From a virus, in the IMG/VR virus record IMGVR_UViG_3300033153_014439, positions 1 through 44,488 of that record: 44,488 nt of DNA; one strand, written 5' to 3'. A model generated the notes under the pieces. That model was not told the origin of the DNA and did no database searches. It worked only from the letters and a program-made list of their open reading frames with translations. Each line of letters begins with the position of its first letter. The stretch's first letter is position 1. This document shows positions 11,641 through 33,411 of this stretch, piece after piece. The translations under genes were made by a program, and so were the position numbers.

Positions 11641-11721
11641 CCCCATGACCACCCGCTGCGGAATCCGAACAACCGGCCGGACTCGGACGACCCTCAGGCG
11701 GAGTCAGGAGGTGCAACGTGA
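11641..11721 (+). other. In-frame extension of the portal gene after TAA
   Basis: Directly after the portal TAA the same frame continues PHDHPLRNPNNRPDSDDPQA then ESGGAT and stops at TGA 11721. The scaffold start GTG 11718 overlaps that TGA, matching the junction style of this genome. The stop is followed by C, a context known to be leaky. This is either a nonsense mutation, a sequencing error (CAA to TAA), or a readthrough extension. Confidence 0.55.
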
Positions 11722-13900: not shown

Positions 13901-13922
13901 TCTCGACATCCCGTGCGGTTCG

Positions 13923-13942
13923 GGGGCGGGTTCGCCCGCCCC
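13923..13942 (+). terminator. Very stable UUCG hairpin after the capsid gene
   Basis: GGGGCGGG-TTCG-CCCGCCCC forms a perfect 8-bp GC stem with a UUCG tetraloop 22 nt after the capsid stop. No T-run follows, so it more likely stabilises or partly terminates the abundant capsid mRNA than ends transcription fully. Its position also shows that the next gene starts downstream of it. Confidence 0.65.
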
Positions 13943-13972
13943 TGGCCCGCACATTTCACGGGAGTACATGTC

Positions 13973-15421
13973 TTGACGGTTGCGGTTGATGAACTGCTCG
14001 ACAACCCCGATGCGGCCGTCCGGAAATGGTTGCAAGCGGGCTTCAGGCCGGTGCAGGTCAACACCCTGCCCGACGGCGGGCGGGCTATTGGCTGGGACAT
14101 CCACGACTATATCGCGACCAGGGGCCGTGCCCCGGAACTACCGTCTGTCGCGGAAACCCCGCTGGCGGCTTTCGCGGGCAGCCCTTGGCGCACACCCAAT
14201 AATATTGCGTTCATCATCGTGTCCGGCAAGGCGCAGGGACAGGCGATAGAGATTTCGCGCGACCTGCTCGCACCCGCCAAACTTGCGGCGCGGGAACTCG
14301 GTACGCTGGCGGGAAGCGATATTCGCGAGCGCATCTGGTACAACAACATGATAGAGAATCGCCCGTACATCGAGAGCGGCGAGTGCATACAGCGCAACCG
14401 GTTTAAGGGGCGGCCCGTCATTATCGCCGGCGCGGGGCCATCACTCGAAAAGCAGGTCGATATGATCAATGAATGCAACGTGCCGGTGATTATGACCAAC
14501 CGCGCCGTCAAAGTCCTGAAGCCGAAACAGGGCTTTTATATGTCCATCGACTTCAAGGGCGAAACTGCGTGGTACGGCGATATTGACGTCGAGAACATCG
14601 AGGCCATTTTCGATACTGTGACTGCCGCGCGTTCCGTGGTGCAACCGTGGAAACGGCGCAGGTGGTTTCGCCAGACCTACGCGACGGGGCTGGCGAACAA
14701 GACCTCCGCCGAGTGGTATCCGCGTCTGCCGCTTCTCGACCCCGGCCATTGTGTCGCGTACGCGGCCTTGGGCCTCGCGCTTTGGTGGGGCGCCGACCCC
14801 ATCATCCTCGTAGGGCAGGACTTTTCCTTCGGCACGAACATGACCATGCACGCCGGCGAGGGGCCGAATTCCGTCGTTTCGAACCACGATCCCCGGCCTG
14901 TGCAGGACATCTACGGCGGCATGACGATCACGGACAAACTCTTTTTCGGGGCGGCCCGGCACGTCATGGCTTCGATTATGCTGTCGAGCGTGTACGGCGG
15001 CATGTGGTCGCGCCATGTGCCGCGCTTCATCAACTGCACCGAGGGCGGTATTCTCGCGATTCCCAATATCGCGCCCCTTGCCGAAACGCTTGAGCGTTGT
15101 GAAACCGACCTTCCGTCCGTGCAGGGCACATCCGTGCCCGCGTACACTTTCAAACCGCGCGCCAACAAGGCGAAACGTCGCGCGCGTGGGGGCGCACCCG
15201 CAGGATACGCCATGCGCCTACTTGACCCGAAACTTCGCAGGGCGGTGTGTAAGCCCGATTCGTACTGGTCAACCGAGTACTACGGCCCCAAAAACCCCGA
15301 CAAACTCGACCCCGGCGTCGTGTTCGTCAAGCACCCCGGCACCGGGCGCGAAATGATGATGTCGAAGGATGTGTATGAGCGGTTGGTGGCGGAAGGGAAA
15401 GCGCCGGATGTTGCGGAATGA
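13973..15421 (+). CDS. DUF115 / Maf-like (MptE-like) enzyme
   Basis: 482 residues from TTG 13973 (ACGGGAG 9 nt upstream). An upstream in-frame GTG at 13913 would place coding through the hairpin and is less likely. The domain begins near residue 145: RPVIIAGAGPSLEKQVD has the family's glycine-rich G-x-G-P-S-L loop, followed by FYMSIDFKG (SID) and ILVGQDFSFG (279-287). This is the PF01973 fold shared by archaeal MptE pyrophosphokinases and bacterial motility-associated factors, which transfer nonulosonic acids such as pseudaminic acid to flagellin. Encoded between capsid and tail genes, it may glycosylate virion or host surface proteins; substrate is unknown. Confidence 0.75.
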   Translation: MTVAVDELLDNPDAAVRKWLQAGFRPVQVNTLPDGGRAIGWDIHDYIATRGRAPELPSVAETPLAAFAGSPWRTPNNIAFIIVSGKAQGQAIEISRDLLAPAKLAARELGTLAGSDIRERIWYNNMIENRPYIESGECIQRNRFKGRPVIIAGAGPSLEKQVDMINECNVPVIMTNRAVKVLKPKQGFYMSIDFKGETAWYGDIDVENIEAIFDTVTAARSVVQPWKRRRWFRQTYATGLANKTSAEWYPRLPLLDPGHCVAYAALGLALWWGADPIILVGQDFSFGTNMTMHAGEGPNSVVSNHDPRPVQDIYGGMTITDKLFFGAARHVMASIMLSSVYGGMWSRHVPRFINCTEGGILAIPNIAPLAETLERCETDLPSVQGTSVPAYTFKPRANKAKRRARGGAPAGYAMRLLDPKLRRAVCKPDSYWSTEYYGPKNPDKLDPGVVFVKHPGTGREMMMSKDVYERLVAEGKAPDVAE

Positions 15422-16944
15422 ACTTCAAGTCATGGCAGATGGTAAGTTCGTCGGGGTGGCTGACCAAGGCGTATACCTACGGCGTCGATGTCCTGCAGTA
15501 CGGGTACGCTGACCGCTACACCTCCGGGGGTTTGCCGTATTTTGCGTCGCGCGTCCAAACGGATGCGGCGCTGGCGTCCGCCATCGGCGCTGACCTGCAT
15601 CTGTACGTTACCACTTACGGCACGCATCCCGTAACGACCGCGATGTTCGCGTCGGTCGGCACGTGGCCGTCGAACGTCACGGCCATCATGTTCGACTCGG
15701 AACTTTCGCCCCCGCGTGCATCGGGCTACTACGACGCCATGCTCGCGTCGGTGCCGTCGCGCATCAGCATCATCGCGCCCGAACCGTATCCCGATTTTTC
15801 GTCCTACGAGGCTTACACACACGGGCGCACCGTCGAATCGCAGGTGTGGCGGCGCGTGGATGGGTACGGCAATTCGACCGCGTGCAGGCGCGTTACGGAC
15901 TTGCCCGCCACGGTGTACGTCAACAACCGTCTGTATGGCAACACGCTTTGGTGCGGGCCGCAGGTATATTCGACCGCGTTGGGCGGCCCGGCCCCGCCGG
16001 GGCTGCTCAAGGCGGGGCTACTGCTGGTCGCGCAGGCTTCCGTCGGCCAGGCCCACGGCGTGCATTGGGGCCTTGATGACCCGTCCATAGGCGAGGAGAC
16101 CTGGGCCGCGCTCAAGGCCGCTTACGACGCGGTGGACGCCATCGACTGGACGGACTTGACGCCAGAGCCGGCCAAGGTGGGTGTCCTGTGCTATCCGTGC
16201 TTTTCGGTCGGCGCGGAGCGCAACAGCGGGTATCGCTTCGCGTGGGAGATGGCGATTCGCGCCAATATCCCCTGCGAAGCCATCATCGGGGCCGACTGCA
16301 CCGACGCCAACCTCGCGCAGTACGACGCGCTTCTCGTGCCCCGCCTGAACACCGCGACCCTGGCGACCCTCAGCACCACCGCCCAGGCCGCGCTTCAGAC
16401 CTTCGCGGCGACCAAGCCGGTGCTATGCGAATGCGCGGACGGCTCCGAATACGGCGGGGGCGCGCAACCCACCATCCCCGCGTGGGCCACCCCCCTGCTC
16501 TCTTCGCGCGCGCACGTGACGCCGCCGTCGTGGTACCCGTCGTTTCACGAATCGCGCGGGTACGAATACGACGCGGGTGTGCATTACAACGCGCGCATGG
16601 CCGCGCTCGTCGCGGACTACCGCGCAAAAACCGGCTGCACGGCCATCAGCACCACGCTCGACCATATCGTGCGCCGCTATCGCCGCGGCAGCACGGGATG
16701 CTGGGTGGTGTTTACGGTGCACGCCGCCACGGGCGAGTACGAGTGGGACGAAATCACGCCCGCAACGGTGACAACAAGCGCAACAACGGTTACGACAGGA
16801 GTAACGGCAGTGGGGCTTGAAGCGACAATTTGGCACGATGAGCCTCCAGGCTTGATTTACCGCTTCGACGAGGATTTCCAGTTCGATGTCGGTAAACAGT
16901 GGGACGGTGAGGACACCATCTGGTACGACGAAGAGGACACGTAA
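15418..16944 (+). CDS. Glycoside-hydrolase-like virion protein (TIM barrel plus GATase-like domain)
   Basis: 508 residues, ATGA overlap with the gene before. The first ~245 residues read as a (beta/alpha)8 barrel (VDVLQYGYADRY, IMFDSELSPPRA, HGVHWGLDD). Residues ~255-350 resemble the class-I glutamine-amidotransferase-like trimerisation domain of GH42 beta-galactosidases: KVGVLCYPCFSVGAERNSGY, then QYDALLVPRLNTATL and AATKPVLCECADGSEYGGG. A beta-rich Thr-repeat tail ends with an acidic stretch. No signal peptide. Probably a structural enzyme attacking surface glycans, or a sugar-binding relic. Catalytic acids cannot be fixed by eye. Confidence 0.6.
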   Translation: MNFKSWQMVSSSGWLTKAYTYGVDVLQYGYADRYTSGGLPYFASRVQTDAALASAIGADLHLYVTTYGTHPVTTAMFASVGTWPSNVTAIMFDSELSPPRASGYYDAMLASVPSRISIIAPEPYPDFSSYEAYTHGRTVESQVWRRVDGYGNSTACRRVTDLPATVYVNNRLYGNTLWCGPQVYSTALGGPAPPGLLKAGLLLVAQASVGQAHGVHWGLDDPSIGEETWAALKAAYDAVDAIDWTDLTPEPAKVGVLCYPCFSVGAERNSGYRFAWEMAIRANIPCEAIIGADCTDANLAQYDALLVPRLNTATLATLSTTAQAALQTFAATKPVLCECADGSEYGGGAQPTIPAWATPLLSSRAHVTPPSWYPSFHESRGYEYDAGVHYNARMAALVADYRAKTGCTAISTTLDHIVRRYRRGSTGCWVVFTVHAATGEYEWDEITPATVTTSATTVTTGVTAVGLEATIWHDEPPGLIYRFDEDFQFDVGKQWDGEDTIWYDEEDT

Positions 16945-17894
16945 TGGCTATTCCAAGTTCGTATGCTATCGCGCTTCGGGAAAACGCGACAAGCGAGAAG
17001 ATGAACACCATCATATCGTGGCTCTACGCCGCGATAGAAAATGTGGACGCCAAGACAGCCGACGCTTGGCTGCTCGGTGCGGCCCACTCTTTCGCGGGCA
17101 CCACGATACAGGATGCGCTCAACGAAAACTACTCCGCGATTGCAGCCGGCCTTACCGTCGGAAGCGGCACCCCGGAAGCCATGTGGTGCGTCAACACCGA
17201 CGTAACGGGCACGCCGACGCAAAACAGCGGGTTCGGTGTCGAGCGCGGCACCTCGCCCAACGTCGCCATTCGCTGGAACGAAACCGGCGATTACTGGGAG
17301 ATGCACAACGGTGCCGCCTATGAGCGCGTGGTCGGCACCTCTAACGCCGAATCGCTTATCGGCGGAATGATGGTACAGCCGTTCGACACGGTGTACAACG
17401 CATCCCTCTTCAACCCGCACGAATTATCGACCTCCAGCGCGACGAACGTGGCCTGGATAGCCACGAGCGACCCGACGTACCACTTCCCCACGCGGCGGCT
17501 TTACAGTTCGCAGACTTCGCTCAACTACTATTGTTTCGACCTGCTCATCAGACTCCCGACGGAATTCGCGGACTGGAAGTCGGCAACCGCCGCCGTCCTG
17601 TATTACCGCACGGAGACCGTCGCCGATTCGCAGAACCACCTCGACATCAGCATCCGGCACAAGGACGACATCCTCGCCTCCGGCACGTCGTGTTCCAGCG
17701 CCACGCGCACGAACCAGGTGGCCACCGCAAGCGGAACATGGACGATCCTGGCGCTGGACAAGTCTGACCTGACGAATGCCGGAAGTGTGTCGTGGGCCGC
17801 AGGCGATTTCTTGCATATCGACATCAAGATGGAGTCGAAATCCTCGAAGTACTGCGAATTCGGCCCGCTCGTGTTATTCGGAGAACGGACGTGA
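16944..17894 (+). CDS. Tail or head-decoration protein, beta-rich (316 aa)
   Basis: TAATG overlap with the preceding gene. A helical N-terminus (MAIPSSYAIALRENATSEKM) could attach to the particle. The rest is Ser/Thr/Gly-rich and beta-structured, and residues ~80-110 resemble a phage fibre repeat (VERGTSPNVAIRWNETGDYW, EMHNG). The C-terminal half looks like a jelly-roll binding domain. Likely an adsorption protein; no named family. Confidence 0.55.
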   Translation: MAIPSSYAIALRENATSEKMNTIISWLYAAIENVDAKTADAWLLGAAHSFAGTTIQDALNENYSAIAAGLTVGSGTPEAMWCVNTDVTGTPTQNSGFGVERGTSPNVAIRWNETGDYWEMHNGAAYERVVGTSNAESLIGGMMVQPFDTVYNASLFNPHELSTSSATNVAWIATSDPTYHFPTRRLYSSQTSLNYYCFDLLIRLPTEFADWKSATAAVLYYRTETVADSQNHLDISIRHKDDILASGTSCSSATRTNQVATASGTWTILALDKSDLTNAGSVSWAAGDFLHIDIKMESKSSKYCEFGPLVLFGERT

Positions 17895-18133
17895 TAAAGC
17901 GCCTCAGCACGAAGGGCCTTGACCTCGGCAAGACCTTTATCGCCTTTTCGCACCGTAGCGATGAGGCGACACTGAATACCGCCTTGCGTCTCGTTTCGCC
18001 GGTGGGTAAGGCGCTTCATATTCACAAGAACGACGCCGGGGAAATCGACGCCGTGTGCCTCGGCAAGCCCCCGCACGACGAATGGTGGAAAGGAACGCCA
18101 GATGGCGACGACCTACGGGTCAACAACGTGTGA
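17891..18133 (+). CDS. Small protein between two tail genes (80 aa)
   Basis: GTG 17891 overlaps the upstream stop (GTGA) and its own end overlaps the next gene by 32 bp. Sequence VIKRLSTKGLDLGKTFIAFS then HRSDEATLNTALRLVSP. Basic and short; perhaps a small virion or chaperone-like protein. No family recognised. Confidence 0.55.
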   Translation: MIKRLSTKGLDLGKTFIAFSHRSDEATLNTALRLVSPVGKALHIHKNDAGEIDAVCLGKPPHDEWWKGTPDGDDLRVNNV

Positions 18134-18896
18134 CGGCAGCGGTACGTTTACGGGCCTCAACACGGGCGGCGATGGTTTGGTCGGGTTCGATAGTTCCAAC
18201 CAGCAGGAAGGCGTGGCCTGCCTGTATACCGAGATGAACGGCACGGCGGGCTACGCCTATGCGTACCTCGACCTCTCGACGCCTATTGGCAACGGGGACT
18301 ACTTTCATATCGGTGGCTGGCTTTGGTTTGCACGCGACTGGGATTTCGAGACTCCGCACAGCGAGCATATCGAGGGTTCCACAAGCGTACCGGCCATCGA
18401 GTTGTATAGCACGGGCAGTATAAAGCAGATACGCCTGATGTGCCGTCCCAGCCAACCCGCTCCCAGCCGCCATTATTGGTTGATACACTCGAATATAGGC
18501 AATAATATTGACATCTTCGACGCCGGTTGGCATTACGGCGCATGGTACTACATCGACATCTACGGTTACGTGGACAACACCGCCGGATGGGTACAGGTGT
18601 GGGAAAACGGCATCAAGCGGGCCGAAATTGCAGGCATCGACACGTACTCCGGCAGCGACTGGGACCGTCTGATACTCGGCGCGTCGTATGAAAACAGCGC
18701 GGGCACGGATATATGCTTCGTGTTTGATGACTTTGTGGTCAATGACGACGCATCGCCGAGCCCGCCCGCCGGATATGGCGGCACCTACGGTTCGCCCGGT
18801 AACCACAACATCATCGCCCCTTTCTATCACGATGGGCGGCACTGTCGCGGTGTCGTCAACAGCCACTGGCCGACAGTTCTTGAATGGAAGCACTGA
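18102..18896 (+). CDS. Concanavalin/LamG-like jelly-roll tail protein
   Basis: 264 residues, beta-rich. The run of segments YAYAYLDLSTPIGNGDYFHI, GGWLWFARDWDF, AWYYIDIYGYVDN, WVQVWENGIKRAE, DRLILGASYEN and CFVFDDFVVNDD follows the strand order and the closing D-D-F-V-x-x-D motif of LamG/concanavalin-A-like lectin domains in phage tails. Likely glycan binding on host or particle surface. Confidence 0.65.
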   Translation: MATTYGSTTCDGSGTFTGLNTGGDGLVGFDSSNQQEGVACLYTEMNGTAGYAYAYLDLSTPIGNGDYFHIGGWLWFARDWDFETPHSEHIEGSTSVPAIELYSTGSIKQIRLMCRPSQPAPSRHYWLIHSNIGNNIDIFDAGWHYGAWYYIDIYGYVDNTAGWVQVWENGIKRAEIAGIDTYSGSDWDRLILGASYENSAGTDICFVFDDFVVNDDASPSPPAGYGGTYGSPGNHNIIAPFYHDGRHCRGVVNSHWPTVLEWKH

Positions 18897-18906
18897 GGAC
18901 ACTCCC

Positions 18907-19608
18907 ATGCTCGTCTCGACCATGATAGACAAGATTATCCGCATGACCAATCTGCCCGCCACCGACATCCTCGGCGACAAGCGCGCGGTCATCATGGACT
19001 ACATTAGCGGCGTTCAGCAGGAATGGGCCGAGCGCACGGGTCGGTTCACGAAGAAAGCCTACACCACCACGCGCGCTTCGGGTGGTGAACGCGCGCAAGG
19101 CGAATACAACCTCGTGCGACAGCCTGGCGCAACCACCGGCGGCCTGCCCTATGGTCTGATTGCCGTACGCGGCGTGACCTGGAATAACCAGATGCTGGAA
19201 CCCGCAGTGTGGGCTTCTGAGAAAATCCGCAAGGAAATCCACGACGGCGCGTATTACGACGACCCGAAGTTCTACTGGGTCGAAAACAACGTCCTGCACC
19301 TCTGGCCGATACCCAAGACCGCCAAGACCCTATGGGTGATTTACAGCGCTAAGCCCAACGACATCGAGTCGGAAAGCGAGTACATCGTCATACCGGAAAC
19401 CACCACGCTCTTTTACGGCGTATGCTCCCTGCTCTACGCGCAACTCAAGGACACGGAAAACCACTTCGCTTTCAAACAACTCTACGAAAAGCGCATCAGG
19501 GAACAGACGCAACCCGTCGTCAGCCAAGGGGCAATCGCGCCATACGCCGACATCGACAACCCCAACGCGGCGCTGGGCAGCGAACTCGGCACCTTCTTCG
19601 GAGTCTGA
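18907..19608 (+). CDS. Head-to-tail adaptor protein
   Basis: 233 residues starting at ATG 18907 behind GAGGAC. The helical N-terminus (MIDKIIRMTNLPATDILGDK then RAVIMDYISGVQQEWAERTG) and central beta section ending IPETTTLFYGVCSLLYAQLK match the style of podovirus connector/adaptor proteins that dock under the portal. It directly precedes the nozzle-like protein, as P22 gp4 precedes gp10. Assigned by fold and synteny. Confidence 0.6.
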   Translation: MLVSTMIDKIIRMTNLPATDILGDKRAVIMDYISGVQQEWAERTGRFTKKAYTTTRASGGERAQGEYNLVRQPGATTGGLPYGLIAVRGVTWNNQMLEPAVWASEKIRKEIHDGAYYDDPKFYWVENNVLHLWPIPKTAKTLWVIYSAKPNDIESESEYIVIPETTTLFYGVCSLLYAQLKDTENHFAFKQLYEKRIREQTQPVVSQGAIAPYADIDNPNAALGSELGTFFGV

Positions 19609-19609
19609 T

Positions 19610-21490
19610 ATGGCTGTCCAGGAAGGCATTCTCCCGCTCAACCGGTTTTTCGGCGTTGACCGCTCCACCCCCGACCATGACCTTGCCGACGGTTGGCTGC
19701 GCACCAAGTGCAACTTCTCGACCGAAGACCGAGGCGCGCTCACCAAGTCGCGCGGCGCGATTCACGTCACCACCGTATCCGCAACTGCCATCGGCGACAT
19801 TCAGCAAATCTACCGCTATTACTACGGTACGACGGGCAAGCAATGGCTCGTCCAGGCAGGCACGTCGGTTTACCAGGTCGCCTCGAACAATTTCGCGGCC
19901 ATCGGGAGCGGCTATCACGCCACGCGCACGCGCAACTTTTGGGTTTTCGACGGCATCTGCTTTTCCGTCAACGACTACGACCCCATGCAGCACTACCACG
20001 GCAGCGATACGATGACCGCCGCGACCTATTCCACACCGTCTTCGCCCGTGGTCGCGACCGGAAGCGCGGGGGCGCTGACGGGCCAGTATGCATACAAACT
20101 GGCGTATCGCTACACGCACGACACCTATAACGCCGGACCAACATCAACGGTCTTGACGCTTTCATCGCACAAGGCCAACATCACCATCCCGGCAACCACC
20201 TCGCCGATTCTTGGCGTTGAAATATACAGGACGCGCGATTTGTCCACCGCGCCCGGTACGGCGGCGCAACTCTACTACATCGCATACGTGTCGGGCACGG
20301 CCTCGTCCACTTACGTCGATAATGCCACCGACGCGACGCTGGTAATCGACGCAAGCCAACTCGCCGCGTCCACCAAGATGAACGCGCCCACCTGCCAGTA
20401 CGGGTGCTTCGCGCAACGGCGCAATATCGTCGGGGGCGGCACGGTGCATCCCGACCGGTTCTACGCCTCCGAGTTCGACAAGCCCTACACGTTTTACCCC
20501 ATGAACTATTACCGCGTCGATGACGATATCACCGGCATCGGCGAACGCACCGGCGATATTTACATCTTCCAGCGCGCCTCCATCGCCAGGCTGTCGGGCA
20601 TAATCGGCGTGAACGAAACGCTCAAGCGCAACATCACGCCCGGTATCGGCGCCATCGCCCCGCGCGCGATATGTTTCACCGATTACGGCGTGTTCTTTCT
20701 TGCCAACGACCGCACCGTGCGCCTCTTCGACGGGTACAGCGCGCAGTCGATTTCCGAACCGGTCAAGGACTACCTGGAAAGCGCCCTCGCGACGTACCTG
20801 CCGTCCGCGACGGCCGTTTTCGTTGACAACAAGTACAAACTGTGGTTCTCTGTCACCGGCGCATCGCACACCTGTTGCGTGGTCTATGACGTTGCGGCCA
20901 AACAGTGGTACACCGAGTACGGGTATTTCCCTGTGGCCGCGGACGTGGCCGACAAGGGCGGCGATCGTGGCGAGGTGTATTTCTCGTACGGGGGACAGGT
21001 GTACCAGGCCGAAACGGGCAACTGTATCTACATCATGAGTTCGCTTGCTTCGGGCACCGCCACCATGTCGCAGTATTCCATATCCGCCACGGCGCTCTCT
21101 AAGGTTTACGACATGGGCATCCCCGGCAAGACCAAGCAGATTCGCAAAATCGAGGCGACGTGGACGGGCGGCAACGGCACCGAAATCATGGAAATCATCG
21201 CCGACCGCGGCCTGCGGCGCATCACGGTGACCCTGCCCAGCGACACCACGGATTACGTGTGGGGATCGTCCGGCTCTGCGGGCACCGCTTCCGTCGGCGT
21301 GTGGGCCAACTCGTACGCCGATGACTACGCGATTTGCTGGGGGCGCGACTCGGGCGAACCGCAACAGGAATATATCGGCATACCCGGCGGCATCTCGGGC
21401 AAACTCTTTCAGTTCAAAATAACCGCCACCGGCACTTCCGAATTCTCCCTCAAACAACTTCGCATCTACTACTGGCATTACGAGGTATAG
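19610..21490 (+). CDS. Tail nozzle / stabilisation protein, P22 gp10-like
   Basis: 626 residues, one base after the adaptor stop. The protein starts PLNRFFGVDRSTPDHDLADG and proceeds through repeated beta blades (IGDIQQIYRYYYGTTGKQWL, TGQYAYKLAYRYTH, GERTGDIYIFQRASIARLSG, ICFTDYGVFFLANDRTVRLF, KYKLWFSVTG, CVVYDVAAKQWYTEYGYF). This is the beta-propeller nozzle that closes the portal channel in P22-like particles. It supports short-tailed morphology. The C-terminal ~100 residues add a beta sandwich. Confidence 0.75.
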   Translation: MAVQEGILPLNRFFGVDRSTPDHDLADGWLRTKCNFSTEDRGALTKSRGAIHVTTVSATAIGDIQQIYRYYYGTTGKQWLVQAGTSVYQVASNNFAAIGSGYHATRTRNFWVFDGICFSVNDYDPMQHYHGSDTMTAATYSTPSSPVVATGSAGALTGQYAYKLAYRYTHDTYNAGPTSTVLTLSSHKANITIPATTSPILGVEIYRTRDLSTAPGTAAQLYYIAYVSGTASSTYVDNATDATLVIDASQLAASTKMNAPTCQYGCFAQRRNIVGGGTVHPDRFYASEFDKPYTFYPMNYYRVDDDITGIGERTGDIYIFQRASIARLSGIIGVNETLKRNITPGIGAIAPRAICFTDYGVFFLANDRTVRLFDGYSAQSISEPVKDYLESALATYLPSATAVFVDNKYKLWFSVTGASHTCCVVYDVAAKQWYTEYGYFPVAADVADKGGDRGEVYFSYGGQVYQAETGNCIYIMSSLASGTATMSQYSISATALSKVYDMGIPGKTKQIRKIEATWTGGNGTEIMEIIADRGLRRITVTLPSDTTDYVWGSSGSAGTASVGVWANSYADDYAICWGRDSGEPQQEYIGIPGGISGKLFQFKITATGTSEFSLKQLRIYYWHYEV

Positions 21491-21491
21491 C

Positions 21492-22121
21492 ATGGCCACC
21501 ACGTATTCCTATACTCCGGTAGTCGCGGGCAACAAAATCATCGTTGATGACGTGAACGTGCCCTTCGCGACCATCTTCGCCGCGCTCAATTCCTTCGACG
21601 GTGGGAACATCCAGTCCAACTCGATTTCCGGGGATGCGCTCCGGGCGGGCACTGTCGCGGGCAGTAAACTCACCGACGCCTCGGTGCCGGGCACGAAATT
21701 GCAGAACGCCACCATTGCGGGCACCAAACTTATCGCGGGCACGGTGGACACCACGCAAATCGCCGACTACGCCATCGAAACCAGCAAACTGGGCACCGCC
21801 GCCGTCACCGCCATCAAACTGGCAACGGGTTTCGGGCGCATCAAGGTCAGCACCTTCACCGGCGACGGCGCGGGCACCCAGGCGATTACGGGCGTCGGGT
21901 TTCAGCCGATTTTCCTGGCTGTCCTGTCGCTGGGCACGGGCTACCTGTACATCAAGACCGGGGACATGGCGGGCGGCGACGCCAAGAACGTGACGGCGAA
22001 CAATACCGCGTCCAACGTGCTCGTCTCGCTTGACGCGGACGGGTTTACCGTGGGCCTAGTGGCATCCCACATGAACGTGGCGGGCACGACCTATTACTAT
22101 CTTGCGCTCGGCTCGACATAA
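21492..22121 (+). CDS. Tail fibre protein with G-x-K-L repeats
   Basis: 209 residues. The middle shows a degenerate 10-12-residue repeat (SISGDALRAGTVAGSKLTDA, SVPGTKLQNATIAGTKLI, IAGTVDTTQIADYA, ETSKLGTAAVTAIKL) of the kind that forms trimeric beta-helical fibre shafts. A C-terminal knob (FTGDGAGTQAITGVGFQPIF) looks like a receptor-binding tip. Start and stop overlap or abut neighbours. Confidence 0.7.
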   Translation: MATTYSYTPVVAGNKIIVDDVNVPFATIFAALNSFDGGNIQSNSISGDALRAGTVAGSKLTDASVPGTKLQNATIAGTKLIAGTVDTTQIADYAIETSKLGTAAVTAIKLATGFGRIKVSTFTGDGAGTQAITGVGFQPIFLAVLSLGTGYLYIKTGDMAGGDAKNVTANNTASNVLVSLDADGFTVGLVASHMNVAGTTYYYLALGST

Positions 22122-22414
22122 TGCTCGGCAAGGCCTATGACCCCGACGCGGTACAGACCGCGATTGATGAGCGGCGCGATTTCGCGCTCGCGAATCTCAC
22201 CGACCGCATACTGACCATCACGTCACCCGCAAGCGCCGCGCAGGAATTCAAGGTTGCGCACGGCCTCGATGCGCCACCCGTGTACTGGCTCGTGATATGG
22301 CAGAACAAGGCGGGAAGCGTGTACGCGGGAGACCGCGCTGCCGACAGAACCTACGCATACCTCAAGACCGACGCGGCGGCGTTGACATTCAAAATCATCT
22401 TCTTCGGTAAGTGA
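22121..22414 (+). CDS. Small fibre-associated protein (97 aa)
   Basis: ATG 22121 overlaps the fibre stop. A helical start (MLGKAYDPDAVQTAIDERRD) is followed by a compact beta domain (AQEFKVAHGLDAPPVYWLVI). Likely a fibre attachment or tip protein; no family recognised. Confidence 0.55.
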   Translation: MLGKAYDPDAVQTAIDERRDFALANLTDRILTITSPASAAQEFKVAHGLDAPPVYWLVIWQNKAGSVYAGDRAADRTYAYLKTDAAALTFKIIFFGK

Positions 22415-22424
22415 GGATACGACT

Positions 22425-23105: not shown

Positions 23106-23109
23106 TAAA

Positions 23110-26900: not shown

Positions 26901-28870
26901 TCGTGAAAGACCCCGCCATCATCGAGCCGCTGTACGTGATGGCCCTGGGCCGCGGTATCGCCATGCAGTCGGTGATGAGCGGGCTGTACGGCCTGCCCAC
27001 CGCGACAGGCTACAACGGCGTGGTGAACAAAAACGTCTTTGCGTCCATGCCGGAAAACACGCGCGAGAAATATCGGCGGCTGGATATCGCTGGCTTGAGC
27101 AAGTGGCGCGTCATCGACAAGGAGCGCGATGCGGACGGCACGGTGCGCCTCATCAAACTCGCCGAACAGGAACTCTACATCAACAAGGAACTCTATGAGC
27201 CCCTCGCCCAACTTGCCAACGTGCCGATAGACGAGCCGCTGCCGATTGTGGGCAAGATATGGGGCAAGTTGGCCGCGCTTGCCAAGCGTGCCACGCTTTT
27301 CCTGACCCCCGTCCATTTTGCCACGCTTCTCTCGTATGCGCTCGTCGCGCCCAGCGGCTTCATGTTGCACCCGTTGCAGGTCGCCAATACGCTGGGTGAA
27401 TTCGGCTCGCTGTGGGAGCGCGACGATCCGGAACTCGTTGAAGCCGTCAACGCCGGCCTTCCCCTCCCCCAACTCGGTAACGCGGAAACGGAAATCCGTC
27501 GCGGGCTGATGCAGGCCGCCAATTTCAAGCAGGCCGCCGGTGTCATCTCGCAAGCCTTCAGGCGCTTTACCGAGACATGGGTTGGCAAGGGGCTGTATAA
27601 CACGTGGCGCACGCTCAAACTCCCGCTTGACGCCTGGGATTTCGTGCTTTTCGACCGCCTCCTCGGCTCCGCCACGTGGGAAAATTACAAGTACGCCCGC
27701 GATTTCTATCTCGACAAAGGCTATGACCGCAAGACCGCCGTGCGCATGGCCGTCGAGGAGGCGTCCACCTTCATGGGCGCGTTACAGAAGGTAATGACCT
27801 CGCGCAAAGGCAATTATTGGGCACGCCGCGCCTTTCTCGCGTCGTCCTTCCGCCGCGCCAATATCGACACGCTTGTCAAGGCTATCAGCGGCAAGGGCTA
27901 TGGCTGGAAGTTTCGGCCGGTGCAGGGCGCGGGCGGAACTGGCGAGGGCGGCGGCATGCGTCGCGAACCCACCGAACTACGCAAGTTGCAGAACCAGGTC
28001 GCGCGCCGCGCAATGGCGAAAATCCTCAAGGGCATCCTGTGGGCCATTATCGCAGCCGACATCCAAACCCTCGCCCATTACATGATGCGCTGGCGCGAAG
28101 AGGGCAAGCGACCCGACCCGAAGTACCTGTGGGACGCCCTCAAGCGCAACGCGCTGACGGGAGGCATCCACGTCTATACCACCGACTTCGACCGCGCCGG
28201 ACGCGGCCTGCGGCATGTCAACGTGGTCTTCCGGCCCATGACGGAACCCATCCGCTGGATGATTCGCTTCGGGCAACAGGCCGTCAGCATTCTCAACCCA
28301 TTCACGCGGGCGGCCGCCCAGTTGGCGGGCAACATTTTGGGTATCTCGCCTTCCGTTGACCCCAACCTGCCACCCAAGCGCCGCGCCATAGAAATGGCGA
28401 AGGAATTCCTTCGCAACACGACCTTCTACGGGCGCATGCCCTACGAACTCGGCGGCTCGAAAATCCCCCGCACGCCCAAAGAGCATTTCCTCATATGGGC
28501 GGGCATATATCCCAGCGCCTACGAGCCGCACAAGGCACTGCTCGACCCCTTGCGCGAAAAAGAGGCCCTGCTCGCCGCCGACCGCGCCGATGCGAGGCTT
28601 CGCGCATGGCGGCGGTGGTTGGAGGGCGATGACGCGGAAGCCATGAAACTGTTGCTGGCACAGTATCCGCCCAAGCGCGCCGCAGAAATCATGCGGGACT
28701 TCGGCAAGATGAGCCGCACGTGGTGGGCCTTCAGGCAGTTGCCCGCCGATATGCGCTTGCAATGGTTCATGCAGATGCCGCCCGAAGAACAAGACGCCTT
28801 TATGGAAGCCGTTGCGGAAGAAATGTTCATCCGCGCCGAACAGGAAGCCAAACTGCACGAGAAGCAATGA
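23990..28870 (+). CDS. Giant internal virion / ejection protein (1626 aa)
   Basis: Start ATG 23990, overlapping the gene before. The N-terminus has a short repeat (FTFTPFASAPVAEFTFTDFG). Residues ~490-570 carry a module seen in phage and plasmid polyvalent proteins: KQPWEMTRDEFRAYC ... ALAEGKPVPAEVLADYPDL. Its DNA (25540-25700) is visibly richer in AT and unlike neighbouring codon use, suggesting a recent insertion. Two hydrophobic stretches occur later (TLFLTPVHFATLLSYALVAP and KILKGILWAIIAADIQTLAH) and could span the host membrane. The rest is helical. No lytic transglycosylase or polymerase motif was recognised. It probably leaves the capsid with DNA. Ends in an ATGA overlap. Confidence 0.7.
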   Translation: MSKFTFTPFASAPVAEFTFTDFGDTGGFVFSDLPSTYKSPPSPAAAIWQKAVAESPTVPMSEAQARHAAPMLPDEQAEGVATGREALEKLYFWTFKQVFPQQARRVEEIADDPSVLLQPWKRAAENMRARGRKPIWEPGLDWGAMGNWLWQGGKAVLSTFGENIGPILKDVNIPARVLGPIVEAVAQTEEHAPYSSPANEVLLMLQKSPEIAKKAWEIFVDVQLKDGDADLVKQAVAAYVDKGVIEPDNAGYLAAFFGVFSNPVIMHSVLTRDLPALEQAIKRRFPNAMAKMQARASLIEKGVDLDSGFSIRAALSGWRGKLSRGERAFLKSELAKWQGRFGMGVKGRGFEMIDANRWQVENEARWLQAKQPRGMSGVAGFPHERPPLMSARPLINIERPAPPEILPVSVIKQAAPTPVPATQFEQPAWFQPTGLVGPAKDIMGAEIVDALAVTAEADMLVTRVPPVPATLAETPGAPAAPEADIEGKQPWEMTRDEFRAYCRQSLAERDLPGAPNQATAEAHIAKQLEAFDVGAMDDTVWRYRREHIQRALAEGKPVPAEVLADYPDLAHGAEAEAPESPTAQRVIADAEAHLKALDTAVANGEHLPAPPDYPDDERAPELPVKYVTVQPTEEGVTARLANIGPGIIRNPVVTDIVKETGADLYIERTRNHDNLYIVKEGKIVAGLRRGMRGWRPRIAGPNYKDVAGQTFAIEGIAPARETDGEAIDELMADLASMKIRDLDDEVTKFYAGLPPASELWDAKTEFVNWLAGMVPPNGLRTRSDIANMQIGALMGDIFGVLNKHEFMAARARDYWVGQSERLRHYLKHPARLKGKLANIWRDTPLTDDVRMEVYRGVEDPDARDLSEWQRKEARKFAERMNRYFEMAVDAGLMDSDWFRDNYFSHVIVGWSHEPGGEPMPAKEYGRYAPGWKKKQFFQHRRRFAGTIEELETNGVEHTAPDGSSKTLYPIFVKDPAIIEPLYVMALGRGIAMQSVMSGLYGLPTATGYNGVVNKNVFASMPENTREKYRRLDIAGLSKWRVIDKERDADGTVRLIKLAEQELYINKELYEPLAQLANVPIDEPLPIVGKIWGKLAALAKRATLFLTPVHFATLLSYALVAPSGFMLHPLQVANTLGEFGSLWERDDPELVEAVNAGLPLPQLGNAETEIRRGLMQAANFKQAAGVISQAFRRFTETWVGKGLYNTWRTLKLPLDAWDFVLFDRLLGSATWENYKYARDFYLDKGYDRKTAVRMAVEEASTFMGALQKVMTSRKGNYWARRAFLASSFRRANIDTLVKAISGKGYGWKFRPVQGAGGTGEGGGMRREPTELRKLQNQVARRAMAKILKGILWAIIAADIQTLAHYMMRWREEGKRPDPKYLWDALKRNALTGGIHVYTTDFDRAGRGLRHVNVVFRPMTEPIRWMIRFGQQAVSILNPFTRAAAQLAGNILGISPSVDPNLPPKRRAIEMAKEFLRNTTFYGRMPYELGGSKIPRTPKEHFLIWAGIYPSAYEPHKALLDPLREKEALLAADRADARLRAWRRWLEGDDAEAMKLLLAQYPPKRAAEIMRDFGKMSRTWWAFRQLPADMRLQWFMQMPPEEQDAFMEAVAEEMFIRAEQEAKLHEKQ

Positions 28871-29130
28871 TGAATGAGCAAGATGAACTCGCCATGCGCG
28901 AACTCTACGCCAATTTCAGCGACCGCGAACTCCTCATACGCCACGCCATCATGCTGCACGAATTGCGCGACGGCGACAGGCCGCCGTGCAACCGCCTCAA
29001 GCGCCTCACCGGAAACGGTAAACTCGGATATCTCCATTACCAGTTCGGCTGGCTTGGCCTGCTGACCATCGCGGTGTTCGGCAGGGACGTCATTATGCCC
29101 CTGTTGAAATTTCTTCTCGCAGCCCTGTGA
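28870..29130 (+). CDS. Small C-terminal-anchor membrane protein (86 aa)
   Basis: ATG 28870 overlaps the giant protein's stop. The N-terminal half is acidic and soluble (MNEQDELAMRELYANFSDRE); the C-terminal 35 residues are hydrophobic (HYQFGWLGLLTIAVFGRDVI then MPLLKFLLAAL). It could be a tail-anchored protein, perhaps a holin or antiholin partner of 30999-31217. Confidence 0.55.
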   Translation: MNEQDELAMRELYANFSDRELLIRHAIMLHELRDGDRPPCNRLKRLTGNGKLGYLHYQFGWLGLLTIAVFGRDVIMPLLKFLLAAL

Positions 29131-29148
29131 CTCACTTAAGCGATTAGC

Positions 29149-29313
29149 ATGTCCCATCCGATTATACCGCACACAGAGCAAGCCGTGTATCGAGGAAGGT
29201 GGTGCGTGCGGAACTCCCGGAATTATCCCGACAGCGCGCCGGTTGCCATACTCCGTGCCGCACACACCAATCCGGCGCGCTGTTCGCTTTCCCGAGGCCG
29301 CCCATGCAGGTAG
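29149..29313 (+). CDS. Possible 54-aa basic protein
   Basis: ATG 29149 to TAG 29313, overlapping the phosphoesterase start. Sequence MSHPIIPHTEQAVYRGRWCV then a basic Arg/Cys-rich tail. No ribosome site and a large hairpin inside the frame (29234-29280) make coding doubtful; the stretch may be an untranslated leader instead. Confidence 0.25.
   Translation: MSHPIIPHTEQAVYRGRWCVRNSRNYPDSAPVAILRAAHTNPARCSLSRGRPCR
29234..29280 (+). other. Long-armed inverted repeat ahead of the phosphoesterase gene
   Basis: GCGCGCCGG (29234-29242) pairs perfectly with CCGGCGCGC (29272-29280), enclosing a 29-nt loop. It lies 24 nt upstream of the next start codon, so it could be a transcription attenuator or a translational control hairpin. 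Confidence 0.45.
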
Positions 29314-30203
29314 CAGGCGCAGGCACCCATTATATCGTGTACAACTCGCGCAGTGACGTGCTGAGCCTAACCGTTTTCGCCGACGGGCACGAGGGGGCAC
29401 GTGGTGCGCGCACGGACAAACTCGACCGCGACATAGCCGCAATCCGCGATGATCCCAACGCCTACTGGCTGCACCTCGGCGATTACGCGGACTTCATCAG
29501 CACCTCGGACCGACGGCGCTTTGACCCCGCCGTCCTTGACCCCACCATCCCGATAGAGGCGATGGGGTACCTCGGCAAGTACCTTGTCACGCGGGTGCGC
29601 GACCGCTTCGCACCCATTGCGCACAAGTGTATCGGCATCGGATATGGCAACCACGAGTGGTACTACATGAAGGAGGAGGAGCAGCAGGATTTGCACGGCT
29701 GGCTCTGCCAGGAACTCGGCGTACCCAATTTCGGCTATTGCTTCATCACGGACGTGGCATTCATACGATGTTCCCGGGGTAAGCCGGGCCTGTATCGCGA
29801 GCGCCCGTACAAAAAGGGCGGGCAGACGTGGACGCGGCGCATATTCGGCCATCACGGGGCTTCATGCGCACAGACACCAGGCGGGCGCATCAAGCATATT
29901 GACGACGCCATGCACCAATATAACGCCGATATTTACCTGCTGGCCCACGTGCACGGCCAAGCCGTGGCCCCGCCGCACGTCGTGCTTGGGGCCAATCACG
30001 ACTGCTCGCGCATACAGCCGTATTACAAACTCGGCGCGATTACCGGTTCGTATCTCGAAACATATCCCGAGGGCGCGGGTGCGGGTTACGGCGAACGGCG
30101 CATGTATCGCCCGTCGCATCTCGGCGCGATAAAGGTCTATTTCGAGCCTGACAAGCGCAAGGCGTGGATACCGACGGTGGTGCAATGGGAGGATGCGACG
30201 TGA
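29304..30203 (+). CDS. Calcineurin-like metallophosphoesterase
   Basis: 299 residues from ATG 29304 (GAGG 6 nt upstream). All five metal motifs are present in order: FADGHEG (Asp27, His29), LGDY (59-60), GNHE (115-118), GHHG (182-185) and AHVHG (214-218). The family uses two metals to hydrolyse phosphomono- or diesters; phage members act on nucleic acid ends, nucleotides or second messengers. Substrate cannot be inferred. Ends in a GTGA overlap with a short leader. Confidence 0.85.
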   Translation: MQVAGAGTHYIVYNSRSDVLSLTVFADGHEGARGARTDKLDRDIAAIRDDPNAYWLHLGDYADFISTSDRRRFDPAVLDPTIPIEAMGYLGKYLVTRVRDRFAPIAHKCIGIGYGNHEWYYMKEEEQQDLHGWLCQELGVPNFGYCFITDVAFIRCSRGKPGLYRERPYKKGGQTWTRRIFGHHGASCAQTPGGRIKHIDDAMHQYNADIYLLAHVHGQAVAPPHVVLGANHDCSRIQPYYKLGAITGSYLETYPEGAGAGYGERRMYRPSHLGAIKVYFEPDKRKAWIPTVVQWEDAT

Positions 30204-30268
30204 GCCGAGCGCATATTGGCTTTCCCACCTATACGTGCAAGGAAGTTGCACGATACGAGGGATTCTGA
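30200..30268 (+). CDS. Possible 22-aa coupling peptide
   Basis: GTG 30200 overlaps the phosphoesterase stop and its TGA overlaps the next ATG (TGATG). It encodes VSRAHIGFPTYTCKEVARYE then GF. Both junctions match the style of this genome, which argues for translation, but the start lacks independent support. Confidence 0.35.
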   Translation: MSRAHIGFPTYTCKEVARYEGF

Positions 30269-30624
30269 TGCAACTCTCACGCGATGGTCTCCACTATCTC
30301 GCCGGACCGTATCGCGGTGCCGTGCGGCGCAATATTCGCGAAGCGGAGCGGTGGGCCGCCGCATGCGCAAGGCGGCGCATCGCCTTCATCTGCCCGCACT
30401 TGAACTCCGCATTCATGTCGGAAGGGACGCAGCCCGACGCACCGCCCGATTTCTGGCTTGAAATGGACAAGAAGATTCTCGCCAAGTGCGAACGGGTCTT
30501 GCTCCTGCCGGGGTGGGAAGGGTCTGTGGGTGCACGCGAAGAGAAGGCGCTGGCCGAGAGGCGCGGCATTCCCGTTTATCCCATCGAAGAGTATTTCGAA
30601 TGCTGGTATGCACTAAACCATTGA
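30268..30624 (+). CDS. DUF4406/DUF1937-type, nucleoside 2-deoxyribosyltransferase-like
   Basis: 118 residues from ATG 30268 with GAGGGA upstream. The motif YLAGPYRGAVRRNIREAERW starts a Rossmann-like domain, followed by ICPHLNSAF and an acidic FWLEMDKKILAKCERVLLLPG with a later EEKALAERRGIPVY. This is the small deoxyribosyltransferase-like group found in many phages; biochemistry of phage members is not settled. It could rework nucleotides or cleave a base-sugar bond in a signalling molecule. A second, different relative lies at 39375-39881. Confidence 0.7.
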   Translation: MQLSRDGLHYLAGPYRGAVRRNIREAERWAAACARRRIAFICPHLNSAFMSEGTQPDAPPDFWLEMDKKILAKCERVLLLPGWEGSVGAREEKALAERRGIPVYPIEEYFECWYALNH

Positions 30625-30636
30625 TCGAGGCATGGG

Positions 30637-31002
30637 ATGGTCAAACCTGATAACGGCGGCGCGCGTTACAGTGAAGGCAAGCCGCGCTTTGATTTATTGC
30701 CCCCCGACGTGTTGCGCGAACTGGCCAAAGTGTACACGATGGGCGCACGCAAGTATGGACACGAGCCGGGCGGCGCCCGGAACTGGGAACGGGGGATGCG
30801 CTGGGGCGAATGTTACCGCGCCGCGCAAAGCCATCTGAACGCCTTTTGGGCGGGCGAAGACTGGAATCACGCCGATGAAGGCGGTCGGCATCATCTCGAC
30901 CATGCAATATGGAACCTGATTGCGTTGCGAACCTATACGTTGCGCGGAATCGGCACGGATGACCGAAATATACTCACAAATGTAGCGGGAGACAACGAAT
31001 GA
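30637..31002 (+). CDS. dATP/dGTP diphosphohydrolase N-domain-like (DUF5664) protein
   Basis: 121 residues. Conserved features are GARYSEGKPRFDLLPPDVL, YTMGARKYG ... GGARNWERGM, a helix with AAQSHLNAFWAGEDWN, and GRHHLDHAIWNLIAL. This matches the small all-alpha MazG-like family annotated as dATP/dGTP diphosphohydrolase N-terminal or DUF5664. In some phages related enzymes trim the dNTP pool (for example toward modified bases). No purZ-like gene accompanies it here, so a role in base substitution is not supported. Confidence 0.7.
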   Translation: MVKPDNGGARYSEGKPRFDLLPPDVLRELAKVYTMGARKYGHEPGGARNWERGMRWGECYRAAQSHLNAFWAGEDWNHADEGGRHHLDHAIWNLIALRTYTLRGIGTDDRNILTNVAGDNE

Positions 31003-31217
31003 ACGGGCTGAAATCGCTGTTGCGGTCACGGAAATTCTGGATTGCCGTTGCCGGCGTATGCGGCGTGATACTGACCGAAACGTTCGGTTGGACGGAAGCC
31101 GATGCGCACACGGTGACCACGGCAATCGTAACTATTGCCAGCGTTCTCATCGGCTCTATCGCGCTGGAGGACGCGGCTACCAAGCGGCATGGTGATATGC
31201 CGGAGGACGGGGAGTGA
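30999..31217 (+). CDS. Putative holin (two-span membrane protein)
   Basis: 72 residues. A basic N-terminus (MNGLKSLLRSRK) is followed by transmembrane helix 1 (FWIAVAGVCGVILTETFG), a short loop and helix 2 (VTTAIVTIASVLIGSIALED), then a charged tail. The SRKFW...IALEDAA pattern is common in phage holin-like proteins. Start overlaps the preceding stop (ATGA), and a lipoprotein gene follows two genes on, fitting a lysis module. An endolysin was not identified. Confidence 0.65.
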   Translation: MNGLKSLLRSRKFWIAVAGVCGVILTETFGWTEADAHTVTTAIVTIASVLIGSIALEDAATKRHGDMPEDGE

Positions 31218-31546
31218 TGAACGCATGGGACAGGGCGCTTGACGTTATCGACCGTCAGCAACGGCAAATCGAAAGTCTGCAAGCCGAAGTGGAGCAGTTA
31301 CGCACCGACCTGCGCATGGCCCAGATGTATAAATGTATGCCCGCCGAGCGGCCCGCACCCAGCCCCGATGTGCCAAACCCAATCAGTTGGCCGGATTGGT
31401 ATGTCAGTGCCCCAACGACGGGTTTGCGACGCGGCGAAATGCGGATATACCAATGGCCGCGGTCGCCATATGCATATCCGGTAGGCCCTGTAGTGTATGC
31501 GGGAGGAAAGCAATCATGGAACACAAGCGGAACGCCAGTATCCTGA
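31217..31546 (+). CDS. Coiled-coil protein with Pro/Tyr-rich tail (109 aa)
   Basis: ATG 31217 overlaps the holin stop (TGATG). Residues 1-35 form a coiled coil (RQQRQIESLQAEVEQLRTDL); the rest is Pro/Trp/Tyr-rich. It overlaps the lipoprotein gene by 31 bp in another frame, an arrangement reminiscent of nested lysis genes, but it has no membrane anchor. Function unknown. Confidence 0.5.
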   Translation: MNAWDRALDVIDRQQRQIESLQAEVEQLRTDLRMAQMYKCMPAERPAPSPDVPNPISWPDWYVSAPTTGLRRGEMRIYQWPRSPYAYPVGPVVYAGGKQSWNTSGTPVS

Positions 31547-31980
31547 GCATCGTCTATGGCCTGATGCTCATCGGCCTTATCGTCGCGGCCGGCTGTGTCA
31601 CGGTCGAGCCCATGACCGCCGAGCGCGCGGCATATCTCGCGGGGAAGGACGCGACGTATGCGCTCTGGCGTTTCGAGGGCGTATCGCTGGAGGATTTGCA
31701 GCGCGCCAAGCCGCATATCGAAGCGCTGTACAATGCGATAACGGCCACAACCGAGGCCGAACTCGATGCAGGCCTGTCAGCGTACCTTGCCGAACAAGCC
31801 AAGGCCCTCCCGCTGGCATCAGACCGCGAAATCGTCATGGAACTTCTCAATCAGACCCTCGCCCAAGTCAAACTGAAAGAGCCCGCGCTTCTCGACAGCC
31901 GCAGCATGGAGATCGCGCGCTGTATCGTCGGCGGCATACTCGACGGCATTGCCCTGGCGGAGGAGGGTGCGGCGGAATGA
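31516..31980 (+). CDS. Phage lipoprotein
   Basis: 154 residues from ATG 31516. A basic start (MEHKRNAS) and hydrophobic helix (ILSIVYGLMLIGLIVAAG) end in a lipobox VAAGC with Cys27, giving a signal peptidase II lipoprotein. The mature part is helical and acidic (TVEPMTAERAAYLAGKDATY). Position after holin suggests a lysis role (outer spanin-like) or superinfection exclusion; mature spanins are usually shorter, so this is open. It implies a Gram-negative-type envelope. Confidence 0.7.
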   Translation: MEHKRNASILSIVYGLMLIGLIVAAGCVTVEPMTAERAAYLAGKDATYALWRFEGVSLEDLQRAKPHIEALYNAITATTEAELDAGLSAYLAEQAKALPLASDREIVMELLNQTLAQVKLKEPALLDSRSMEIARCIVGGILDGIALAEEGAAE

Positions 31981-32237
31981 CCGACCTCGCCGCCAGACTC
32001 TTGGCCATCGTGATTGCGCGCACGACACCGCTCACGCAGGCGGACGCGGCGATTCTGATGAATCTGGCCGCTGAAATCCGGAGGGCCGTGAGCGTGCGCG
32101 GCGTCCGGTGCCCCTACGGGCGCGAGGGCGACGACTTGTGCGTGCCGGACAAATGGTCACGGCAAGACCGGACATACCATGCGAAGATGTGCGCGCATTG
32201 TCCGGTGTTTCGCAAAGTGCGGGGGAAACGGGACTGA
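31977..32237 (+). CDS. Small Cys-rich protein (86 aa)
   Basis: ATGA overlap with the lipoprotein gene. An N-terminal helical part (MTDLAARLLAIVIARTTPLT) is followed by a possible zinc site C-P-Y-G-x5-LC and CAHCPVF near the C-terminus. No family recognised. Confidence 0.5.
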   Translation: MTDLAARLLAIVIARTTPLTQADAAILMNLAAEIRRAVSVRGVRCPYGREGDDLCVPDKWSRQDRTYHAKMCAHCPVFRKVRGKRD

Positions 32238-32278
32238 GCGACACACTAGGCGCGGAAGACGGTTGGACGCTGTGGAAG

Positions 32279-32539
32279 ATGCGCCCCCCCGACGGCTGGC
32301 AGGCCGTCGGGCTGACGCCACCGCCGACCAATGAAACTGTGCCAAGTCGCACAGTTAGGCGGCGGGGCGTTTCTTGGGGCCGTGGGATAATCAAAGCGGG
32401 CGGTTGTGACGCTTACCCGCCATCGCGTATATCGCGAAAACCAAATAGCGCCCCGGCAGTAACGCACTGCCGGCAACCCACGGCCCCGCAATTTATCAGG
32501 CGACAGCACCCTGCGAAACAACAGGGAGGAACAGCATGA
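32279..32539 (+). CDS. Doubtful 86-aa frame before the SDR gene
   Basis: ATG 32279 to TGA 32539, overlapping the next start as ATGA. The start reads MRPPDGWQAVGLTPPPTNET, plausible at first, but the rest is Arg/Pro-rich and the stretch is dominated by perfect hairpins. Either a small gene or untranslated leader. Confidence 0.3.
   Translation: MRPPDGWQAVGLTPPPTNETVPSRTVRRRGVSWGRGIIKAGGCDAYPPSRISRKPNSAPAVTHCRQPTAPQFIRRQHPAKQQGGTA
32288..32473 (+). other. Cluster of three perfect hairpins upstream of the SDR gene
   Basis: CCCGACGGC-TGGCAG-GCCGTCGGG (32288-32311), AACTGTGC-CAAGTC-GCACAGTT (32335-32356) and CCGGCAGT-AACGC-ACTGCCGG (32453-32473) occur in the 298-nt gap 32238-32535. Such density suggests a structured leader RNA, an attenuator or a small RNA. 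None has a T-run. Confidence 0.45.
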
Positions 32540-33411
32540 GCATCTACACCGATGCCACAATCCTCGTGACCGGCGGCACCGGCTCGATAGGTTCGCGTGT
32601 CGTCGCGGAACTCCTCAAGCACGCGCCGCGTGCAATCCGCATACTCTCCCGTAACGAGGAAAAGCAGTTCTGGATGCGCCGCAAGTACCTGGGCCGCACC
32701 CTGCGCTTCCTCATCGGCGACATCCGCGACCGCGACCGCCTATCCGACGCCATGCACGGTGTGGATTACGTCTTTCACTGCGCGGCCATGAAGCACGTGG
32801 ACATGTGCCAGTACAACCCGCAGGAGGCCAACAAGACCAACGTGGACGGCACGATGAACGTCCTGCGCGCCGCCACGCACGCCGGCGTCAAGCGACTGGT
32901 GCATCTCTCCACCGACAAGATCGTCCAGCCGAACTGCGTGATGGCGGCCACGAAACTCGCCGCAGAGCAAACGGTGCTTGCCCACAATCGCTGGCAGGAC
33001 AGGCCCGTGTGTATCGTGGCGCGGATGGGCAATGTCTTGTATTCGAGCGGGTCGCTTGCGCAAATCATTTGCCGTTGCGTACGCCTCGGGAAGCGGTACA
33101 CCTTGACCGACCCTGACATGCGGCGCTACTTCATCAGCGGTGAGGACGCTGCGCGGTGGTTATTGTGCGCGCTCATGGGGGGCGACGCGGGGGATATTTG
33201 GATTCCCCGCATGACGGAATGGCGTATCGGTGACCTTGCGCCGCGCATCGCCCGCCAATGTGCCGCCGCCTACAAGGTGCGCTACAAGTACGCGGACGAT
33301 TACTTGGTTATCGGCGCAAGGCCGTGGGAAAACATGCGCGAGGAACTCTGGACTGCGCACGAGGCCGTGCGATTGCGGGATGTGGACGGGGGTTGGGTGA
33401 TTCCGCTGTAA
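32536..33411 (+). CDS. UDP-sugar 4,6-dehydratase/epimerase-like SDR (PseB/CapD family)
   Basis: 291 residues behind GGGAGGAACAGC. An NAD(P)-binding Rossmann motif TGGTGSIG (12-19) is followed by GDIRDRD (61-67), CAAMKHVDMCQYNPQEA (82-98), TNVDGTMNV (101-109) and the catalytic segment LSTDKIVQPNCVMAATK (124-140). This is the polysaccharide-biosynthesis PF02719 group that includes PseB, which starts pseudaminic acid synthesis from UDP-GlcNAc. The usual Y-x-x-x-K has Met136 for Tyr, as in some CapD/WbpM-type members. It may feed a sugar to the Maf-like enzyme at 13973-15421. It is the last rightward gene. Confidence 0.8.
   Translation: MSIYTDATILVTGGTGSIGSRVVAELLKHAPRAIRILSRNEEKQFWMRRKYLGRTLRFLIGDIRDRDRLSDAMHGVDYVFHCAAMKHVDMCQYNPQEANKTNVDGTMNVLRAATHAGVKRLVHLSTDKIVQPNCVMAATKLAAEQTVLAHNRWQDRPVCIVARMGNVLYSSGSLAQIICRCVRLGKRYTLTDPDMRRYFISGEDAARWLLCALMGGDAGDIWIPRMTEWRIGDLAPRIARQCAAAYKVRYKYADDYLVIGARPWENMREELWTAHEAVRLRDVDGGWVIPL

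Follow-up and report, generated by a model that had tools for sequence, protein, structure and literature searches.

A Maf-like gene among the capsid and neck genes of an uncultivated phage: a candidate for virion glycosylation

To our knowledge, virion glycosylation has been documented in few phages. Mycobacteriophages, as cited in two papers (PMC12363180, PMC12619734), glycosylate their capsid and tail tube by means of their own transferases. The phages Che8, Corndog and Myrna have a phage-encoded glycosyltransferase for virion proteins in common with the locus described here, where the activity is predicted from the genes, whereas the accounts consulted describe no Maf-type enzyme accompanied by nonulosonate synthesis genes. 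In cells, Maf enzymes glycosylate flagellin in the cytoplasm, prior to export (PMC4065374). Phage genes that act on pseudaminic acid include epaA and epaB of an Acinetobacter baumannii prophage, and this is the likeness to the present case that we propose; these genes, however, modify the host capsule and have no reported link to a virion protein (PMC12053666). Stenotrophomonas phage DLP4 carries a NeuB_NnaB-like domain in its lysis cassette (PMC6469090). Our search of open-licence papers found no report of a phage-encoded Maf, DLP4 and epaA/epaB being the nearest cases.

The window analysed here is the whole of IMG/VR virus record IMGVR_UViG_3300033153_014439 (44,488 bases, 61% GC), which derives from an uncultivated phage with a SU10-like portal and adaptor, as judged from Pfam and PHROG profile searches. 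An earlier note had proposed that a DUF115/Maf-type protein encoded between the capsid and tail genes, together with a PseB/CapD-like short-chain dehydrogenase (SDR) at the end of the same block, forms a route to virion glycosylation. The features that bear on this proposal are as follows.

7844-9757: TerL
9754-11640: portal
11718-12587: scaffold-like gene
12605-13900, plus strand: major capsid protein, a candidate acceptor (PF13252, 2.2e-10; phrog_334, 7.4e-18)
13905-13972, plus strand: RNA hairpin with a GC stem (13923-13942) and a UUCG loop, from RNA folding
13973-15421, plus strand: predicted DUF115/Maf-type glycosyltransferase (PF01973, 6.1e-19)
15418-16944, plus strand: 508-aa protein sharing 4 bases (ATGA) with the end of DUF115, a candidate for a virion protein or acceptor
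18688-19608, plus strand: SU10-type adaptor (neck) protein (PF24175, 1.9e-11)
32536-33411, plus strand: UDP-GlcNAc 4,6-dehydratase-type SDR, intact (PF02719, 4.1e-71)

The placement given in the earlier note is borne out for both genes. The DUF115 gene directly follows the capsid gene (PF13252) and precedes the gene for the SU10-type adaptor, with the tail genes further on, and the SDR gene closes the co-directional late block, the next annotated genes being on the minus strand. The two are separated by 17 kb. Searches with the 508-aa product gave no Pfam or PHROG match, no significant PDB match and no phage match.

Other genes of the record include a C5 cytosine methylase (40650-41522), an ERF recombinase (42596-43264) and a DUF5131 protein (36062-36838), all on the minus strand of the right arm. 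A nucleotide-metabolism pair on the plus strand precedes the SDR gene, consisting of a DUF4406/DUF7768 gene (30193-30624) and a gene with the PF18909 N-terminal domain of dATP/dGTP diphosphohydrolase (30637-31002). Near the left end, a glycosyl hydrolase family 10 (xylanase-type) gene on the minus strand (2609-3664), with a weak TAT-signal match, lies beside an HTH regulator and represents host DNA flanking the phage or else cargo of the phage.

Family, fold and start of the DUF115 protein

The DUF115 protein matches PF01973 (6.1e-19) and, at 68.9 bits, exceeds the cut-off of 34.6; the domain spans approximately residues 144 to 400 as numbered from GTG 13913. It carries the motifs GAGPSL, GQDFSF and NCTEGG; when it is aligned to 22 further phage homologues, GPSL and GQD do not vary, and NCTEGG is nearly constant at its N, E and second G. 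The predicted core superimposes on the Magnetospirillum Maf structure 5mu5 with a Z score of 21.9 over 253 residues, a result with which Foldseek agrees, and on the CMP-sialyltransferases CstI and CstII with Z scores of about 9.

The Pfam model is named MptE-like, and single-sequence searches of the PDB match only the archaeal pterin kinase HPPK (0.026 and 0.093), as might be expected if the protein belonged to the MptE side of PF01973 and acted as a pterin or nucleotide kinase. We consider this very improbable. The fold comparison with HPPK yields a Z score of only 13.2, on which ground the pterin-kinase role was dropped; a profile of the 23 DUF115 homologues also favours Maf 5mu5 (1.6e-18) over HPPK (4e-11), and the genes of relatives adjoin NeuB and cytidylyltransferase genes.

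In comparison with the Maf/PseD enzymes of cells (Magnetospirillum Maf 5mu5 and Aeromonas caviae Maf1), the catalytic-domain fold and the conserved motifs are common to both. The N-terminal part of the window protein is shorter and different, however, and there is no recognised TPR tail; the regions flanking the core are predicted with low confidence (mean pLDDT 55). Of the 23 phage homologues, 22 have a match to the NCBIfam model for PseD (NF050051). The window protein scores 20.9 bits against this model, whose cut-off is 670, which indicates a Maf-like enzyme rather than a PseD orthologue. Thus, the protein is Maf-like by its modelled fold and by family, and transferase activity would be the predicted consequence.

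The open reading frame begins at GTG 13913, just 5′ of the strong hairpin stem. Because a GGGAG ribosome-binding-like site lies 8 bases 5′ of TTG 13973, the latter codon is the better start and is likely the true one, as the earlier note also had it. The 80-base hairpin region has a folding energy of -42.5 kcal/mol (z -5.0 versus shuffles), and its stem is unique in the window. No T-run follows the hairpin at 13905-13972, and an expression step-down or mRNA-end element is therefore likelier than a terminator. We infer that the hairpin likely has one of these two roles, possibly setting capsid versus enzyme expression or shielding the end of the capsid mRNA.

Maf-type genes in other uncultivated phages

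A search of IMG/VR with a degenerate DNA pattern based on the GQD motif of DUF115 returned 28 contigs, all with PF01973 above its cut-off. Among the 21 that are informative by having at least 1.5 kb of downstream sequence, the DUF115 gene lies directly upstream of TerL, on the same strand and within 2.6 kb, in 18, although such adjacency counts are not independent in a motif-selected set with many related members, and the tree suggests about five independent cases. Whole-contig matches add a 19th case of TerL after DUF115 (L025). The identity of TerL, portal and capsid was checked for representative contigs.

The neighbouring genes resemble those of the cellular Maf/PseD systems, as NeuB, PseB, PseC-type and cytidylyltransferase genes likewise occur beside the phage relatives, whereas the phage genes are viral and have capsid and terminase genes, rather than flagellin, as their neighbours. 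NeuB-type genes are present in 20 of the 28 contigs, and a PseB-type SDR (PF02719) is found close to DUF115 in 14. In Group A (e.g. L013, L018, L019 and L027), the order is an acetyl- or formyltransferase, a short NeuB-like gene, the PseB-type SDR and DUF115, followed by TerL, portal and capsid. Group B (L011, L017, L020, L022 and L024, with L015 and L025 incomplete) has a TerL and portal distantly related to those of the window. Separate cases outside both groups are L002, L029, L005/L023 and L164.

Two contigs carry longer sets of sugar genes. In L002 (5053-10328), genes for NeuB, a cytidylyltransferase, a NeuC-type epimerase, DUF115 and TerL follow one another with successive 4-base overlaps, forming what appears to be a compact sialic-acid-type operon fused to the packaging operon. 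L012 (1939-12718) encodes a cytidylyltransferase, an oxidoreductase, a DegT aminotransferase, a formyltransferase, a short NeuB-like protein, an SDR and DUF115, and we read this set as a near-complete nonulosonate cassette; its NeuB-like protein (216 aa) is shorter than known NeuB, and its reaction may differ. L164 (590-8851), a prophage within an assembly of Candidatus Poribacteria, has DUF115 5′ of the terminase and portal and is the only DUF115-terminase case with a named host group. Contig L054, which was found via its terminase and not via DUF115, has PF01973 above cut-off between genes that we read as tail terminator and tail tube from their sequences and gene order.

A phage Maf might instead have a host target, modifying flagellin or a different surface protein in the infected or lysogenic cell, which could for instance keep rival phages out; the SDR would then alter host surface polysaccharide. 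Cellular Mafs do modify flagellin (PMC4065374), the prophage genes epaA and epaB alter the pseudaminic acid of the host capsule (PMC12053666), and the phage relatives of the SDR are mostly annotated as nucleotide-sugar epimerase or dehydratase. However, DUF115 lies within the head-tail operon in the window and in L054, and it adjoins the terminase on the same strand in most contigs. Both positions suggest late expression together with virion genes, and we regard a host target as unlikely. The space 5′ of terminases is a common site for cargo genes. This weakens the positional argument where the other phages are concerned, but leaves it intact for the window and L054.

Peptide-pattern searches found no close kin of the window's DUF115, SDR, TerL or major capsid protein, and the DUF115, portal and major capsid proteins have no match in GenBank phages. 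Gene order, including any joint conservation of DUF115 and SDR, could therefore not be compared between near relatives. Of the co-occurrence in related phages to which the earlier note had looked, the part concerning the DUF115 contigs holds (NeuB in 20 of 28, SDR in 14 of 28), whereas the part concerning close kin of the window phage yielded no case. No window-like terminase or portal lies near any of 80 DUF115 loci from genome assemblies, and a search of 50,697 GenBank phage records yielded no homologue of the DUF115 of the window, of Group A or of Group B.

In a tree of 116 DUF115 domains, the viral label needs 7 changes, at least 5 of which are forced by supported branches. This suggests that phages probably recruited Maf-type genes from cellular Mafs repeatedly, although a change may also represent a loss. 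The window protein occupies a separate, very long branch with no firm sister. Of 80 contigs sampled through their related terminases, 1 carries DUF115 within the DNA fetched, so the gene is sporadic rather than core.

The SDR and the rest of the pathway

The SDR belongs to the UDP-GlcNAc 4,6-dehydratase superfamily by profile (PF02719, 4.1e-71) and by fold, and it has the NAD(P) motif GGTGSIG, an intact STDK and MxxxK. Its closest structures are CapE, WbjB, Pen and FlaA1/PseB, with which it shares the whole fold (TM about 0.8-0.87), GGTGSxG and STDK. It is, however, 31-38% identical to these enzymes, shorter (291 aa) and below the cut-offs for both PseB (TIGR03589, 218.5 bits against an equivalog cut-off of 407.75) and FnlA (194 bits, far under). 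A Met occupies the position of the Tyr in the YxxxK of PseB, as in CapE. In the SDR tree, the window protein lies on a long branch (2.8) and has no supported grouping with PseB, CapE or Pen singly. PseB, CapE and Pen initiate pathways that lead to Pse or L-FucNAc. For this reason, the class of the SDR is consistent with the idea in the earlier note, without amounting to proof of it. Judged by these comparisons, the SDR is a UDP-HexNAc 4,6-dehydratase-type enzyme whose product is unsettled between sugar pathways.

The earlier note had placed the two proteins at opposite ends of pseudaminic acid modification. Its Maf end stands on the fold (Z 21.9), whereas the PseB end fares less well, given a score of 218 bits against 408, the closeness to CapE, WbjB and Pen, the Met for Tyr and the 17 kb between the genes. 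The two genes could indeed be unrelated, with DUF115 glycosylating the virion from a donor made entirely by the host and the SDR making another sugar, such as one of FucNAc type for the host surface, or serving nucleotide modification. Consistent with such a separation, CapE and WbjB are closest to the SDR and share its active-site Met, and the SDR gene lies 1.5-2.3 kb from the DUF4406 and dATP/dGTP diphosphohydrolase genes. On the other hand, 14 of the 28 DUF115 phage contigs have an SDR of the same family near DUF115, and of 26 aligned SDRs from loci with DUF115, 7 have the same Met, which shows that this residue is compatible with the pathway. We therefore consider unrelated roles for the two genes possible but somewhat doubtful.

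The middle enzymes of the pathway, which the earlier note expected to be missing from the phage, indeed have no match in the record, which may be incomplete, whether by profile (NeuB, PF03102; cytidylyltransferase, PF02348; aminotransferase, PF01041) or by phmmer with the cassette enzymes. A complete nonulosonate pathway, comprising NeuB/PseI, a cytidylyltransferase and a PseC-type enzyme, was accordingly not found in this possibly partial record. The donor sugar would thus need a host source, or else genes in a missing part of the record.

A possible route to glycosylated virions

Glycosylation of virion proteins is the best explanation for the independent placing of Maf-type genes next to genes for packaging, head or neck, in many cases together with a CMP-nonulosonate pathway. 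Flagellin is modified by Maf while still in the cytoplasm, which makes a capsid protein a feasible target. We infer a scheme that includes the transferase activity, an acceptor in the virion, the identity of the sugar and a shared pathway for SDR and DUF115. DUF115 would be a cytoplasmic Maf-type transferase, made alongside the head and neck proteins and probably held at catalytic levels by the hairpin 3′ of the capsid gene. It would move a nonulosonic acid (pseudaminic, legionaminic or a relative) from its CMP form to Ser/Thr residues on a virion protein soon after its synthesis (the capsid protein, perhaps, or the product of 15418-16944), such that the particle bears acidic sugars. The SDR would open the pathway by making its 4-keto-6-deoxy UDP-HexNAc intermediate, and the host would supply the remaining steps.

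Glycosylation of the virion by the window's DUF115, with or without the SDR, seems to us probable. That the SDR also acts upstream in the same pathway is a tentative proposal, to which we give somewhat less than an even chance. The link to virion glycosylation made in the earlier note gains from the position of DUF115 directly 5′ of the terminase in 18 of 21 contigs, while its union of SDR and DUF115 in one pathway stays conjectural.

More broadly, several unrelated lineages of uncultivated tailed phages may independently have taken Maf-type transferases, often together with CMP-nonulosonate genes, from flagellin glycosylation islands to sugar their own virions, a proposal whose chances we judge to be evenly balanced. 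If it is true, the recurrent module of Maf and nonulosonate genes beside packaging genes would mean that a system for modifying flagella has been put to use on virus particles. Such a module would also predict acidic, sialic-acid-like particle coats that affect adsorption, stability or immune recognition.
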